Assembly: GCA_005884115.1 (NCBI GenBank)
Contig: VAXW01000004.1
Span: forward strand, 62,001-126,000
DNA length: 64,000 bases
Source of the DNA: Actinomycetota bacterium
GTDB taxonomy: Bacteria > Actinomycetota > Thermoleophilia > Solirubrobacterales > Solirubrobacteraceae
Direction of reading: 5' to 3'
In this document: in pieces, positions 4,241 to 22,106 of the stretch
How the letters are laid out: every line of letters begins with the position of its first letter
Position numbering within the stretch: the first letter of the stretch is position 1
Program-made: the position numbers and the translations under genes
Notes under the pieces: model-generated
Database searches by the model: none
What the model was told of the DNA's origin: nothing
The model's input: the letters and a program-made list of their open reading frames with translations, nothing else

Positions 4241-4633
4241 TCACGCGCGCGCGGTGACCGCGACGCGAGCCGCTCGGGCAAGCGAGGCCTGCCCATCATC
4301 GAGCGTGTGTAGCGCCCGTCCGGTCGCGGCGGCGGTGGCGACGATCAACAGGTCGGTCGCCTTGCTGGCGCGGCCCGTCGAACGGGCCAGCGCGAGGATG
4401 TCGCCGTAGTGCTCCGCCACGAGCTCGTCGACGGGAAGCGGCTCGAACGCCTGTCGAATCGCATTCAAGCGCCGCTGGCGAGCGGCCCGCACCGAGGGGT
4501 CTTCAGCCAGTCGCACGCCCGCTCGCAGCTCACCGACAGTGATGACCGAGATCGCTGCCGACTCCGGCAGGCCAGCCGCTGACGCCGAGACGCCTCCGAT
4601 CACGACGGAGGTATCCAGAAGCGCTCCCGTCAA
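4241..4633 (-). CDS. vapC: VapC-type PIN-domain ribonuclease toxin
   Basis: A 130-residue PIN domain, the usual VapC size. Its acidic pocket is visible as D7 (LLDTSVV), E35 (TVGELRAG), D94 (KATDLLIVATA) and D112/D113 near the C-terminus. VapC toxins are Mg-dependent endoribonucleases, often cutting tRNA or rRNA, held inactive by the cognate antitoxin. The start is a TTG at 4633 that overlaps the vapB stop as TTGA (4630-4633), so the two are translationally coupled. The RNA target cannot be read from sequence. Confidence 0.88.
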   Translation of the reverse strand: MTGALLDTSVVIGGVSASAAGLPESAAISVITVGELRAGVRLAEDPSVRAARQRRLNAIRQAFEPLPVDELVAEHYGDILALARSTGRASKATDLLIVATAAATGRALHTLDDGQASLARAARVAVTARA

Positions 4634-4908
4634 CGCCCGTCCCAGTCATGCTCGACGGATTCCTCCGCCGCCCGCAACCCGGCGACATCCTTCGCGAACG
4701 CCTTGTCGACAGGAGTCTCGGCGAGAAGCGCGCGGAGGCTCTCGCGATCGACCTCCACGCGGCGCTCTGGTTGCTCCCGCAGCGGGCCAAGTCTGGCCAC
4801 GGGGCGGCCGCGCACGGTGATCGTGAACTCATCGCCCGACTGCGCCCGTCTGAGGACCTCAGCGACGTTGTTGCGCAGCTCGCGCTGCGGTATGGACTGG
4901 TCAGACAC
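4630..4908 (-). CDS. vapB: VapB antitoxin, Phd/YefM-type
   Basis: A 92-residue antitoxin starting at GTG 4908. The N-terminal segment IPQRELRNNVAEVLRRA followed by FTITVRGRPVARLGPL is typical of the Phd/YefM DNA-binding fold. The acidic C-terminus (about 50-92) would thread into VapC. The longer frame starting at 4953 adds residues encoded by the operator and is unlikely. It is the first gene of a two-gene operon with vapC. A perfect inverted repeat directly upstream fits autoregulation. Confidence 0.85.
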   Translation of the reverse strand: MSDQSIPQRELRNNVAEVLRRAQSGDEFTITVRGRPVARLGPLREQPERRVEVDRESLRALLAETPVDKAFAKDVAGLRAAEESVEHDWDGR

Positions 4909-4911
4909 AGT

Positions 4912-4928
4912 TGCTACGCACTGTAGCA
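4912..4928 (-). promoter_or_regulatory. VapBC operator and -10 region
   Basis: A perfect inverted repeat TGCTAC-GCACT-GTAGCA lies 3 bp before the vapB start codon. On the minus strand it embeds a TACAGT hexamer (4920-4925) fitting an actinobacterial -10 box. Toxin-antitoxin operons are normally repressed by their own complex, so this is the natural binding site. Confidence 0.6.
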
Positions 4929-5004
4929 GTCGCCTTTGACACCGCGACGGCAACGCACGTGGCGAGCTGGGGCCGTTCTCAATCAGGCGGACCTCCCTCG
5001 CTGC

Positions 5005-6311: not shown

Positions 6312-6767
6312 ATGCAGCCGTACATCGCGGGCCTGCGCGCGCTGGGAGTCGACGCGCGCGCGCTTCGCCTGCCCCGCGGAGCCGCCGAGCGAGCGATGGC
6401 TCCGCTTCGAGAGCAGGTCGGAGCAGGTCTGTCTGACGCTGTGATCGGCGGGCATTCCTACGGCGGCAGGGTCGCGAGCATGGTCGCGGCGCAGACCGCG
6501 CCGGCGGGCCTCGTGTTGCTCAGCTACCCGCTGCATCGCCCGGGACATCCTGAGGAGCCGAGAGCTTCGCACTGGAGTGAGATCGCGTGTCCGGTGCTCG
6601 TGCTCTCCGGCGATCGCGACCAGTTCGCGCGCGCGGATCTGTTGCGCGAAGCCGTGAAGCAGCTTCCGCGCGCGGAGCTGCACCTGTATCCGGGCATGCG
6701 CCACGGGCTTCAGCAAGTCGCCGACGACGTCGCCCGTCGCATCAGCGCCTTCGTGAGGGCCCCTTAG
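6312..6767 (+). CDS. Small alpha/beta hydrolase (KANL3/Tex30-like)
   Basis: A compact alpha/beta hydrolase of at least 151 residues. The nucleophile elbow GGHSYGGR (Ser about 48), the VLVLSGDRDQF strand carrying the acid, and YPGMRHGL carrying the histidine are all present. The first ATG is at 6312, but coding similarity continues upstream: codons from 6270 read EVWLAHGASGGPET, the expected first strand and oxyanion loop. No ATG, GTG or TTG is in frame there. The gene may start at ATC 6267 or the assembly may hold an error. The substrate is unknown. Confidence 0.78.
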   Translation: MQPYIAGLRALGVDARALRLPRGAAERAMAPLREQVGAGLSDAVIGGHSYGGRVASMVAAQTAPAGLVLLSYPLHRPGHPEEPRASHWSEIACPVLVLSGDRDQFARADLLREAVKQLPRAELHLYPGMRHGLQQVADDVARRISAFVRAP

Positions 6768-6777
6768 AGCGCGGCGC

Positions 6778-6853
6778 GGGGGCGCCCCGCCTAGGGTTCG
6801 GGGCGCCCCGTTGCCGTGCGCTGGGGTGCTCCGCCTAGGGTTCGGGGCACCCC
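6778..6853. terminator. Two tandem GC-rich hairpins, likely bidirectional terminator
   Basis: Two near-identical elements lie between convergent genes. The first pairs GGGGCGCCCC around GCCTAGGGTTC (6778-6809). The second pairs GGGGTGC with GCACCCC around the same loop (6823-6853). The shared CCGCCTAGGGTTCGGGGC core shows a tandem duplication with compensating changes in the stem. There is no T-run. Confidence 0.6.
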
Positions 6854-6946
6854 TTGCGCTGGTGCGTTGCTCTTTTGGGTGGTTTTGGGGTTGTTGTTGG
6901 TCTTGGGGTTGGTTGTTGGTCTGCCCAGGACTGGGACGGCCGGCGG

Positions 6947-8704
6947 CTAGCTAGTCCTTGCGGTCGCAGCGCCGCCCTGGTCCTGCCAGTTGTCCTGGTC
7001 TGTCTCGTTGTGGTTTGCCGAGTAAGCGTTGTTCTCGGCGTCGTTGGACTGATCGACGTCACCGTTGTTCGAGCACGGGCTGTTGACCGCGATCGGCACG
7101 TTGACGTTTTCCTGTTCGCTCTCGGCCTCGCTTTCGGCTGACTGCGAGGTCGAGTTGCTGTTTGAGGCCGACTGGCTCTGGTCGACCTGCTGGCCGCCGT
7201 TGCCGCCAGGGGGGTCATCGCCGCGGCTGACCGACACGCCGGTCGCGGCACCACCCTGGTTCTGCCCGTTGCTCTGGTCGGTGTGGTTGTGGTTGGCCGA
7301 GTACGCGTTGTTCTCGGCGTTGTTGGACTGGTTCACGTCGCCGTTGTTCGATCCCGGGCTGTTGACCGCGATCGGCACGTTGACGTTTGCCTGTTCGCTC
7401 TCGGCCTCGCTTTCGGCTGACTGCGAGGTCGAGTTGCTGTTCGAGGCGGACTGGCTCTGGTCGACCTGCTGGCCGCCGTTGCCCTTTCCGCTCTCGTAGC
7501 CACAGCACGAGCTGTCGCCACCGCCGCTGACCGACACGCCGGTGGCTGCAGCGCCCTGGTTCTGCCAGTTCTGCTGCTCGGTGCTGTTGTGGTTCGCCGA
7601 GTACGCGTTGTTCTCGGCGTTGTTGGACTGGCTCACGTCGCCGTTGTTCGAGTACGGGCTGTTGACCGCAATCGGGACGTTGACGTTGAGCTGTTCGCTC
7701 GAGGCCTCGCTTTCAGCCGACTGCGAGGTTTCGTTGCTGTTCGAGGCGGACTGGCTCTGGCTGACCTCCTGGCCGCCATTGCCCTTCCAGGAAGGATCGC
7801 TCCCGCCGCTGACCGACACGTCGGTGGCGGCACCACCCTGGTTCTGCCTGCTGCCCTGCTCGGTTTCGTTGTAGTTCGCCGAGCGCGCGTTGTTCTCCGC
7901 GCCGTTGGACTGATTCACGTCGCCGTTGTTCGAGTACGGGCTGTTGACCGCAATCGGGACGTTGACGTTGGCCTGTCGCGAGCTGGCTTCGCTCGAGGCC
8001 GACTGGTCGGTGCTGTTTTCGTTGTTCGCGGACTGGGTCTGCTCGACCTCCTGTCCGCCGTTGCCACCAGAGGGGTCCCCGCCGCGGCTGACCGACACGC
8101 CGGTCGCGGCTGCACCCTGGTTCTGCTGGTTTTCCTGCTCGGTGCTGTTGTGGTTGGCCGAGGACGCGTTGTTCTCGGCGTTGTTGGACTGGTTGACCTC
8201 GCCGTTGTTCGATCCCGGGCTGTTGACCGGGATCGGCACGTTGACGTTGGTCTGTTCGCTCTCAGCCTCGCTTTCGGCCGACTGCGAGGTCGAGTTGCTG
8301 TTCGAGGCGGACTGGCTCTGGTCGACCTGCTGACCGCCGTTGCCGCCGTCGGAGCTACCGCCGTCGTTGCTCGTGACGCCGGTGGCGGCTCCGCCCTGGT
8401 TTTGCTGGTTTTCCTGCTCTGTGCTGTTGTAGTTGGCCGACGACGCGTTGTTCTCCGCGCCGTTCGACTGATCCACGTCGCCGTTGTTCGAGTACGGGCT
8501 GTTGACCGCAATCGGCACGTTGACGTTTGCCTGCTGCGAGCTTGCCTCGCTCGAAGCCGACTGTTCTGTGCTGTTTTCATTGCCAGCGGTCTGGGCCTGC
8601 TGGACCTCCTGACCGCCGCCGCCACTTTCGCCCGCGAGCGCTGTGCCCGGGGCCAAGGCGAGCGCACAGATGCTCACCGCCATGGCTAACCAATGGCGTT
8701 TCAT
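6947..8704 (-). CDS. Exported protein with six 92-residue Asn/Gln/Ser-rich tandem repeats
   Basis: A 585-residue protein with a signal peptide (about 1-24, MKRHWLAMAVSICALALA..ALA) and then six tandem units of about 92 residues. Each unit has a QxxQSQSASNSNST stretch, an N-V-N-V-P-I-A-V-N-S-P core, NNGDVxQSNxAENN, and a Gly-rich linker. Units 1 and 3 share one subtype (NENST..SASSEASS), and units 2, 4, 5 and 6 share another. Regular alternation of Asn, Gln, Ser and Ala resembles curlin-like or beta-solenoid repeats, and the NVPIAVNSP core recalls chaplin-type surface proteins; both are comparisons by eye. Unit 4 ends with a unique Cys-Cys. ATG 8704 has AGGAG upstream. The likely role is a surface fibre or matrix component. 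Confidence 0.8.
   Translation of the reverse strand: MKRHWLAMAVSICALALAPGTALAGESGGGGQEVQQAQTAGNENSTEQSASSEASSQQANVNVPIAVNSPYSNNGDVDQSNGAENNASSANYNSTEQENQQNQGGAATGVTSNDGGSSDGGNGGQQVDQSQSASNSNSTSQSAESEAESEQTNVNVPIPVNSPGSNNGEVNQSNNAENNASSANHNSTEQENQQNQGAAATGVSVSRGGDPSGGNGGQEVEQTQSANNENSTDQSASSEASSRQANVNVPIAVNSPYSNNGDVNQSNGAENNARSANYNETEQGSRQNQGGAATDVSVSGGSDPSWKGNGGQEVSQSQSASNSNETSQSAESEASSEQLNVNVPIAVNSPYSNNGDVSQSNNAENNAYSANHNSTEQQNWQNQGAAATGVSVSGGGDSSCCGYESGKGNGGQQVDQSQSASNSNSTSQSAESEAESEQANVNVPIAVNSPGSNNGDVNQSNNAENNAYSANHNHTDQSNGQNQGGAATGVSVSRGDDPPGGNGGQQVDQSQSASNSNSTSQSAESEAESEQENVNVPIAVNSPCSNNGDVDQSNDAENNAYSANHNETDQDNWQDQGGAATARTS
6950..8623 (-). repeat. Six tandem coding repeats of about 276 bp
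   Basis: The DNA encoding the exported repeat protein is itself a tandem array of six copies of about 265-300 bp. Copies remain recognisable at nucleotide level, for example the NSP-SNNGDV segment recurs in each, so unequal crossing-over could change copy number. Confidence 0.8.
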
Positions 8705-8788
8705 CGGATTGCTCCTTTCGAGAGCTTCGAATTGATTACCGAGACCCGGCTCTCGAGAGGTCGAGCAACCCCTCGGAGTCGGACCACT

Positions 8789-8817
8789 CAGCGCCAGGAC
8801 CGGCCGATCCGGCGCTG
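8789..8817 (-). terminator. Hairpin downstream of the Ala/Pro/Thr-rich surface protein gene
   Basis: CAGCGCC (8789-8795) pairs perfectly with GGCGCTG (8811-8817), with an inner GGA/TCC extension. It lies 19 bp beyond the stop of the gene ending at 8836 and before the next minus-strand gene, which suits a terminator or processing stem without a U-tract. Confidence 0.5.
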
Positions 8818-8835
8818 CGAGTCACCCGGGAGGAG

Positions 8836-10272
8836 CTAGCCCGGGCGCTCAGGCATCAATACGAACGGCGCCGGCCAGCGCGACCTGTCGGCAAGTCGCA
8901 AACGGCGCCGTGTCCACGGAGCCCCCAGCACCAGGAGCCCCGCAAGAATGAGAAGCATCAAAGAGCCAAATCCCGACGATGAGCCGCCCGCTGACGAGAA
9001 GCCCGCGGCGGGCGGCGCAGTGTTGAGCAGCGCCGGCGTTCCCAGGCTCGCCGCCGTGGCCATGGCGACGCTGACCGCCGGCGTAAGCGATGAGGCGCCA
9101 CCCGCGCTGGCCAGAAACTGCCATGGGCTCGCGGGCCGCGGCAGCAAGGACGCCGGTGCACGCTGCAAGCCAGGTGTTCGAGACGACGGCGGCAGGCCCT
9201 CGCGCAGGGTCGCTCCTTCAGCGAGCGGCGGGCCGTTGGCGCCCGATAGCGGGCTTGGGGGTGCGGCTCGCGCCGCTGGGGGCGGGGCGCCAGCCGGGGT
9301 CGCGCGCGCGATCAGCGTGAAGAGCCCGCCTTGGCGACCTTCGGGCAAGAGCGTGTCGGCGGCCACGGGCGGCCCCAACGCCGGCGGGAGCGACCCTCCG
9401 GCAGCGCCGACTACGGAGCGCACCGTGCCAGTGAGCGAGCCGACCGTGTCGCTAACCAGGCCGAGCGTTTCCGTCGTGAGCGCGCTGAGCGTGCTCGTGA
9501 CCGGCGACAGCAGCCCGCCCCCGAGACCACTCCCTGGTCCGGCGAGCGAGCCGAGCGTCCCGGTTACCGCGTTGGTCAGCGGGGCCACGGCGTGCGTGAC
9601 CGGAGCGATCGCTTGGCTTGCTGTATTGGTCAGGAGCGACTGGGTTCCGCCCGCGGTTGTGCCGAGCGACCCCGTCGCCGACCCGAGTGTGCGTACGACC
9701 GTCGTCGTGATAGGAGCGGCCGCGCCGATGATGGGCGCGGCCGCGTGCGCGATCGATCGCGCCGCAGGGGTGACAGCCGGGGTCACGGGCGCTGGCGCCG
9801 CGGTCGCAGCCCGCGTGACCGGCACCGCCGCCTTGGTCTTCGTGTGCACCACCGGCGCTGCTGTGTGCGTCACAGGCGCCGCCGCTTCGGTGGCCGCCTG
9901 CTTCGCCGGCGCGGCCGCGTGCACGACAGGCGCGGCCGCGCGGGTTGCGCTGTCCGCGATAGGCGCAGCCGTTTTCGTGCTCGGCGCGGTGCTTTCGGCC
10001 GGCGGTGTGGACGCGCTCGGCGAGGAGGTGACCGCGTGAGTGGCCGGCGCCACCGTCTGCGTTACCGGCGCAGTCGCTTGCGTCACCGGTGCAGTCGCTT
10101 GCGTGACCGGCGCTGCCTTTTGCGTGACGCCTTCCAGGCCTGCGGCAGACGCCCGGTCAGCAAGGACGAGGGTGAGCGCAGTCAGGCATGCGAAAACGCA
10201 ACCAACTAACAGGCTGGCAATCCGTGCCGACACGCGCAGGCATGTCCAGGGATGCTGAGCTTCGCCGAGCAT
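8836..10272 (-). CDS. Exported Ala/Pro/Thr-rich membrane-anchored surface protein
   Basis: A 478-residue protein with an N-terminal export signal (hydrophobic about 17-38, then ADRASAAG as a probable cleavage site). The next 200 residues are low-complexity repeats built on APVTQAT, APVVHAA and APVTHTA. A Gly/Ser/Thr/Leu segment follows, then a Pro-rich stretch. The C-terminus has a single hydrophobic helix (SLMLLILAGLLVLGAPW) followed by RRRLR, which would anchor it in the membrane with its bulk outside. There is no LPxTG sortase motif. The helical A-P-V-T repeats suggest a stalk. It lies just upstream of the six-repeat exported protein in the same direction, so the two may build one surface layer. 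No family was recognised. Confidence 0.65.
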   Translation of the reverse strand: MLGEAQHPWTCLRVSARIASLLVGCVFACLTALTLVLADRASAAGLEGVTQKAAPVTQATAPVTQATAPVTQTVAPATHAVTSSPSASTPPAESTAPSTKTAAPIADSATRAAAPVVHAAAPAKQAATEAAAPVTHTAAPVVHTKTKAAVPVTRAATAAPAPVTPAVTPAARSIAHAAAPIIGAAAPITTTVVRTLGSATGSLGTTAGGTQSLLTNTASQAIAPVTHAVAPLTNAVTGTLGSLAGPGSGLGGGLLSPVTSTLSALTTETLGLVSDTVGSLTGTVRSVVGAAGGSLPPALGPPVAADTLLPEGRQGGLFTLIARATPAGAPPPAARAAPPSPLSGANGPPLAEGATLREGLPPSSRTPGLQRAPASLLPRPASPWQFLASAGGASSLTPAVSVAMATAASLGTPALLNTAPPAAGFSSAGGSSSGFGSLMLLILAGLLVLGAPWTRRRLRLADRSRWPAPFVLMPERPG

Positions 10273-21845: not shown

Positions 21846-22106
21846 GCATCCCTGCAGGCATGGCACCGTCAGGCGCCCTCGCCGGGCCTCCGTCCCTTCA
21901 GGCACGGCCGCGTCAGGCGCCCTCGCCGGCCTCCGTCTCTGCGGGCACAGCGGCGTCAGGCGCCCTCGCCGGCCTCCGTCTCTGCGGGCACAGCGGCGTC
22001 AGGCGCCCTCGCCGGCCTCCGTCTCTGCAGGCACGGCGGCGTCAGGCGCCCTCGCCCGGCCTCCATCCCCTCAGGCATGGCAGCGTCAGGCGCCCTCGCC
22101 GGCCTC
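21846..22106. repeat. 43-bp minisatellite between convergent genes
   Basis: Five complete units begin at 21868, 21912, 21955, 21998 and 22041 (44, 43, 43, 43, 44 bp). There is a partial unit before them, and a sixth start at 22085 that merges into the 3' end of the kinase gene. Each unit opens with GTCAGGCGCCCTCGCCGGCC. On the minus strand this spells the last codons of the kinase gene (E-A-G-E-G-A-stop), so the array is a serial duplication of that gene's end. No CRISPR-like unique spacers are present. Confidence 0.85.

Follow-up and report, generated by a model that had tools for sequence, protein, structure and literature searches.

A two-gene cassette for an exported tandem-repeat protein and a predicted membrane-anchored partner: a candidate surface fibre system in Thermoleophilia

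What kind of protein is encoded by a reading frame that consists of a leader and six tandem units, and could it form a fibre on the cell surface? In the window, by which we mean the whole stretch of 64,000 nucleotides analysed here, such a gene is located on the minus strand at positions 6947-8704, exactly where an initial annotation had placed it. The gene starts with ATG, codes for 585 amino acids and is preceded by the Shine-Dalgarno sequence AAAGGAG (8712-8718, minus strand). The protein had been described as exported, which is borne out by its N-terminal sequence MKRHWLAMAVSICALALAPGTALA (8633-8704, minus strand), judged by eye to be a Sec-type signal peptide. The six tandem units that had been reported were also recovered, but not with the uniform length of 92 residues given for them: units 1 (8339-8617), 2 (8060-8338) and 5 (7199-7477) are 93 residues long, unit 3 (7778-8059) has 94 residues, unit 4 (7478-7777) has 100 and contains CC in its linker, and unit 6 (6950-7198), which is without the linker and has one Cys, has 83, all on the minus strand. 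Tandem Repeats Finder reports the array at 6961-8533 with a period of 279, 5.6 copies and a score of 1800. One copy of the repeat gene was seen in the window genome.

Pairwise identity among the six units is 71-88% at the protein and 72-92% at the DNA level, with a pooled pS of 0.34 and pN of 0.17. Since dN/dS ranges from 0.27 to 0.66 across the 15 pairs, the repeat frame is selected as a protein. Two unit subtypes had been distinguished previously. One of them is clear, as units 2, 4, 5 and 6 form a group with 80-88% protein identity, but the pairing of units 1 and 3 is weak: they are 76% identical to each other, unit 1 is 71-74% and unit 3 71-77% identical to the rest, and unit 3 is equally close to units 4 and 1. 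The duplication of a two-unit block, which had also been proposed, is not established, because the closest pair is formed by units 2 and 5 (88% protein, 92% DNA) and not by units 2 and 4 (84%).

Directly upstream and on the same strand lies a second gene (8836-10272, minus strand), which codes for a protein of 478 amino acids; this predicted membrane-anchored partner and the conservation of the unit among relatives had both been overlooked in the initial annotation. The partner has a leader, Pro/Ala/Thr repeats of the APVTQ type, a C-terminal membrane-type segment (GFGSLMLLILAGLLVLGAPW, 8914-8973, minus strand, hydropathy 2.45) and the C-terminal end ERPG (8839-8850, minus strand), and no match to the unit was found in it at the thresholds used. 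The partner stop and the start of the repeat gene are separated by a gap of 131 nt (8705-8835, minus strand), in which no terminator-like site was called on the minus strand and whose RNA is more stably folded than its shuffled versions (z -2.8). For the window and 24 related loci, the mean fold z of the gaps against shuffles was -2.5, with 13 of 25 below -2. When the gap was folded alone, the Shine-Dalgarno sequence paired with the 22 nt that follow the partner stop, with a mean of 0.42 as compared to 0.18 for shuffles (largest of 200 shuffles, 0.31), values above 0.5 in 12 of 25 loci and a value of 0.81 in the window. With the coding flanks included in the folding, the pairing exceeded 0.5 in 9 of 25 loci, in which it would couple translation, and dropped to 0.00 in the window; translational coupling of the cassette is therefore not claimed. 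For locus G065, the start taken in the gap-folding analyses lies 39 nt downstream of the one behind the count of gap lengths given below.

The distribution of the repeat gene is patchy. With the window protein as query, matches were obtained in 6 of 146 genomes of the same family (own genome included). A profile of 18 units (A1) matched 9 of 232 genomes of the order, again including the own genome, and a broader profile of 16 units (A3) matched 24 of 399 genomes of the class Thermoleophilia, own genome included, which had been sampled evenly from a larger group, as well as 3 of 396 genomes in a sample of the phylum (the own genome again counted), one of which, G630, is outside the class. Within the genus (24 genomes), the family and order searches gave matches in the own genome and in G102 alone, the latter being a Solirubrobacteraceae metagenome-assembled genome (JAICYC010000078.1, identical over 4000 bases), and the genes flanking the window cassette are present in 3 and 7 of the 24 genus genomes. 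No relatives were confirmed in viral contigs. As to the surroundings in the window, two G+C-rich palindrome-like repeats (6774-6857), perhaps a shared terminator, are located between a hydrolase-like gene (6312-6767, plus strand) and the convergent repeat gene. A PIN-domain toxin and Phd/YefM antitoxin pair is encoded at 4241-4953 (minus strand; PF01850, E 3.7e-10, and PF02604, E 5.3e-9), and a tandem array with a 43-bp period, 5.9 copies and 90% matches is found at 21852-22106.

The initial annotation had staked its proposal in part on the existence of relatives with a conserved unit, and these were found. We chose 30 loci from 27 genomes (own genome included) among the matches listed, so that the loci number at least 30; their repeat proteins have 2-13 units, and the protein of G630, outside the class, has a single one. 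As a partner we counted any PG-ending reading frame of at least 150 amino acids with a C-terminal hydrophobic stretch (cut 1.5) and a stop no more than 900 nt upstream of the first unit. Such a frame is present in 25 of the 30 loci, where it ends 150-266 nt ahead of the first unit. With G630, which also has one, a partner gene immediately precedes the repeat gene in the same orientation in 26 of the 30 loci for which upstream sequence is available. If G274 is counted as well, where an LERPG end is in the expected place and the hydrophobic stretch is weak (1.28 for a cut of 1.5), this becomes 27 of 30. G102 was left out of the partner count, as its locus starts at a contig edge. No adjacent partner was found in the remaining three loci, namely the second one in each of G011 and G005 and that of G400, where a membrane-type protein farther upstream contains RRPG followed by more residues. 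Among 1016 reading frames of at least 150 amino acids in the fetched loci, only 26 end in PG and have a hydrophobic segment, and 25 of these are the partners. The commonest C-terminal end is ERPG, with DRPG, DKPG, WRPG, QRPG, HPG, DPG, PPG and EPG also being found. In 25 loci, 60-131 nt separate the partner stop from the start of the repeat gene, and every one of these repeat genes has a leader, judged by eye, and a Shine-Dalgarno-like motif, which the script favoured in its choice of starts.

Twelve partners bear 1-7 units themselves, whereas no unit was found at the thresholds used in 14 of 26 partners (25 judged by script and that of G630 by eye). The partners of the window and of G630 have APVT-type repeats in place of units, and G630 encodes the membrane end in a different frame from the leader and these repeats; in the partners of G011 and G005, a short NSPG remnant is seen by eye. 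Taken together, the constant gene order, the short gap and the common unit suggest that the same module is co-produced in a membrane-held and a free form. In G011 and G005, the second loci (L047, 5006-8182, minus strand, and L049, 5927-9083, plus strand) contain some units shortened to ~70 residues as well as CxxxC linkers, and in the second locus of G005 the repeat is split over two overlapping frames. G274 and G302 have a further reading frame 3' of the repeat gene (L096, 6939-8954, and L100, 7399-9624, numbered along the repeat-gene strand); the two products have similar C-termini (..YVWP.FG......YGKLL) and are possibly a third component.

The ERPG end is also found outside of the cassette. 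A DNA pattern for this end has 8 matches in the own genome, as compared to 3 for the reversed pattern, and 3 of the 8 are exported-type proteins with an ERPG end, of which two lack an accompanying repeat gene. The latter two are encoded by reading frames ending at position 1512 of loci L058 and L061 (own genome, C2:448 kb and C5:324 kb); they possess a hydrophobic C-terminal stretch and terminate in ..FVLIPERPG, and one such lone protein shares 57% with the window partner over the last 88 residues. ERPG may serve this group as a tail for sorting or retention. A different tail is present in the repeat protein of G307 (L109, 4113-6620, minus strand), which ends in LPFTG and a hydrophobic stretch, presumably a sortase-type wall anchor, and which would again place the module at the surface. 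It is the only one of 46 unit-bearing reading frames to resemble LPXTG-ended tandem-repeat surface proteins in this way, and LPxTG is absent from the window repeat protein and the window partner. Two sortase-family matches above the cut-off were found in the own genome.

Which fold does the unit point to? An alignment of 247 units (domain E up to 1e-4, from the unit-bearing reading frames of the 30 loci, with loci weighted equally) yields a consensus with a first arm, Q...Q.A.T.Q.A.S.A.A.Q...N.N.PV.V, a turn of the SPG or GG type, and a second arm, V.Q.N...A.A.A.N.N.T.Q...Q.Q. Across the 247 units, residues Q4, Q14, Q47 and Q65 (model numbering) are conserved at ~100% and N28 and N59 at ~99%, and conservation in the two arms of ~28 residues alternates strictly (i, i+2), with a difference of ~2.1 bits and a p value of 5e-5, the floor of 20,000 permutations, in columns 3-31 and 45-71 each. 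In chosen columns, the conserved, inward face is 96% Q, A, N, S or T and 0.3% charged, as opposed to 24% charged residues on the outward face. The six window units follow the same pattern: when parity was the sole criterion for sorting the columns, variation was seen in 1 of 27 on the inward side and in 18 of 26 on the outward side (Fisher p 4e-7; two columns that were not filled in all six units were dropped), and with chosen columns in 0 of 24 and 17 of 24. Alternating conservation is a mark of extended beta-strands with one face buried. The regular pattern described earlier is thus a conserved one, and its strict i, i+2 alternation supports, by residue pattern and not by structure, that both arms are extended beta-strands. 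The buried face would be polar and small, similar to that of amide-ladder solenoids and amyloids.

We propose, with a probability of about 50%, that the gene pair is a single cassette encoding a Sec-exported surface fibre on a membrane-anchored base, in which beta units with a polar core are stacked. The partner (8836-10272) would be exported and held in the membrane through its C-terminal segment, with the Pro/Ala/Thr-rich stalk pointing outward, and the repeat protein (6947-8704) would also be exported but have no anchor itself. Within each 93-residue unit, two long beta arms would meet at the NVNVPIAVNSP..NNGDV turn, so that alternate residues (Q, N, A, S and T) face a tightly packed polar core, which is repeated from unit to unit, and acidic and serine residues are turned outward. 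Stacking between repeat-protein molecules could then lead to a fibre, which might be amyloid in nature, and the anchored partner would be the base where this fibre starts or is held. As the window partner is without a recognisable unit, the contact there would be of another kind. More tentatively, and with odds that we put well short of even, one might speculate that Thermoleophilia possess a two-component fibre independent of curli, in which an ERPG-ended anchor with at least one 93-residue beta unit, its core made up wholly of polar Q/N/A/S/T residues, templates the polymer of the free downstream protein and export occurs via the general Sec route with no dedicated pore. For the window genome this templating idea is weaker, because its partner has no unit.

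Among the alternatives, the one that fares best, and which we nevertheless regard as somewhat unlikely, is a disordered hydrophilic surface coat or stalk, in which extended hydrated repeats held near the membrane by the partner would provide protection from desiccation or serve as a spacer. It would agree with the make-up of the mature protein, in which S accounts for 18%, N for 17% and G, Q and A for 11% each, the net charge of -57 of the whole protein and the variable length of the linkers. Structure prediction, which the initial annotation had suggested for one and three units, yielded no confident AlphaFold2 fold: three units gave a pLDDT of 34.2 with scattered strands, and one unit a pLDDT of 48.3 with no secondary structure reported. 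These low values lean weakly towards disorder, as the shallow alignments of 6 and 8 rows, respectively, drawn from the window and one related locus, make their weight small; for CsgA models, a mean pLDDT of 83 is given by Sleutel and co-workers (PMC10192328). Disorder leaves unexplained why conservation follows a strict i, i+2 rhythm, why Gln and Asn are near-invariant at fixed spacing across genera and why the turn is conserved.

A folded surface protein that does not polymerise seems less probable still. Here, units in the form of beta-hairpins or short solenoids would bind a glycan, a surface, a metal or ice, and the array would provide avidity. Binding solenoids also show regular alternating N/T/Q faces, and the anchored partner as well as the LPFTG end in one relative would fit a role in display. 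However, the unit is common to anchored and free proteins in 12 loci, for which co-assembly is the better fit, and the conserved residues sit on a nearly uncharged face.

That the window protein is a divergent curli protein is very improbable. Each window unit has two N-x-N-x-T-x-Q motifs, which resemble the curlin kernel N-x-Psi-x-Psi-x-Q described for the ~23-residue repeats of curli, in which CsgB is the nucleator (Sleutel et al., PMC10192328), and a relaxed kernel pattern occurs 12 times in the window protein, as compared to a mean of 3.9 in shuffled sequences, with none of 500 shuffles reaching as many. On the other hand, the look-alike motif carries Asn at a position that is hydrophobic, Ser or Thr in curlin, and the strict kernel does not occur in the window protein (in 8 relatives, it is above chance in 5 and absent in 3). 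Curlin (PF07012) gave no Pfam match at E up to 10 in the window protein or in nine relatives and partners, and no curlin was found in the own genome at E up to 1, with a positive control search in E. coli. The commonest Gln spacing in the window protein is 22, followed by 4, 6, 2 and 10, whereas it is 11 in CsgA/CsgB of K-12, and an hhalign comparison of profile A3 with the nine K-12 CsgA/CsgB repeats gave a probability of 0.6% with one column aligned. We conclude from these comparisons that the repeat protein is not homologous to curlin. That the reading frame is a by-product of the DNA tandem repeat and no real gene can be dismissed, for although other frames are also open at length (for instance 7589-8689, plus strand, 366 amino acids), dN/dS is below 1 in all 15 unit pairs, and a leader, a Shine-Dalgarno sequence and a conserved two-gene cassette are present.

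By analogy, the fibre cassette that we propose may still work like curli. As for CsgA and CsgB, an exported repeat protein has alternating inward Gln, Asn and small residues, and a repeat is common to two gene products, of which CsgB is the surface nucleator in curli (PMC10192328). The systems differ in the length of the unit (~93 versus ~23 residues), in the Gln spacing (10 versus 11, QX10Q) and in the partner: the one described here possesses its own membrane-type segment, while CsgB attaches to the CsgG-CsgF pore (PMC10192328). No Pfam or PDB-sequence match to TasA or TapA was obtained. To our knowledge, TasA and TapA have no common tandem unit of the kind found in the cassette, and chaplins and rodlins are not 93-residue tandem arrays. 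The likeness to TasA/TapA of Bacillus subtilis is that of a Gram-positive fibre subunit with a dedicated anchoring or assembly protein, and the chaplins and rodlins of Streptomyces are likewise actinobacterial, being secreted surface amyloids (PMC7766987).

Searches of known families gave little for the window protein: DUF6093 alone in Pfam (E up to 10), at an E value of 0.04 that we take as chance-level, one chance match in NCBIfam (E 0.12) and no match among PDB sequences for the protein (E up to 1) or the unit profile (E up to 10). Chaplin, rodlin and TasA, for each of which a model is assumed to be in the libraries, gave no Pfam or NCBIfam match for the window protein, and no adhesin domain was found with Pfam or NCBIfam in the window protein, the relatives and partners. 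A Pfam scan of nine relatives and partners and an NCBIfam scan of nine returned scattered matches that mostly differ per relative, such as EB1_binding (6e-6, just above the cut-off, L104), RAP80_UIM (1e-7, above the cut-off, L109), DUF4479 (8e-5) and Uxx_star (2e-6, far below its cut-off), with EB1_binding and Agd3_C recurring in two and three relatives, respectively. As they have no common thread, we regard these matches as repeat noise. Judged by these searches, the repeat protein is a new, unnamed family. In the open-licence literature, we found nothing on this repeat family or on ERPG as a sorting signal and no surface fibre described for Thermoleophilia; the main text of one review does not contain the terms Thermoleophil and Solirubrobacter (PMC7766987), and that of a further article does not contain Actinobacter and Actinomycet (PMC12520557).

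The cassette thus represents a repeat family without a name as yet, in which unit, partner and C-terminal tail are all defined and from which a new family model can be made. Thermoleophilia are abundant in soil. If the core is indeed all polar and the anchor does template it, the task accomplished by CsgB and CsgA would have been solved a second time by unrelated means.
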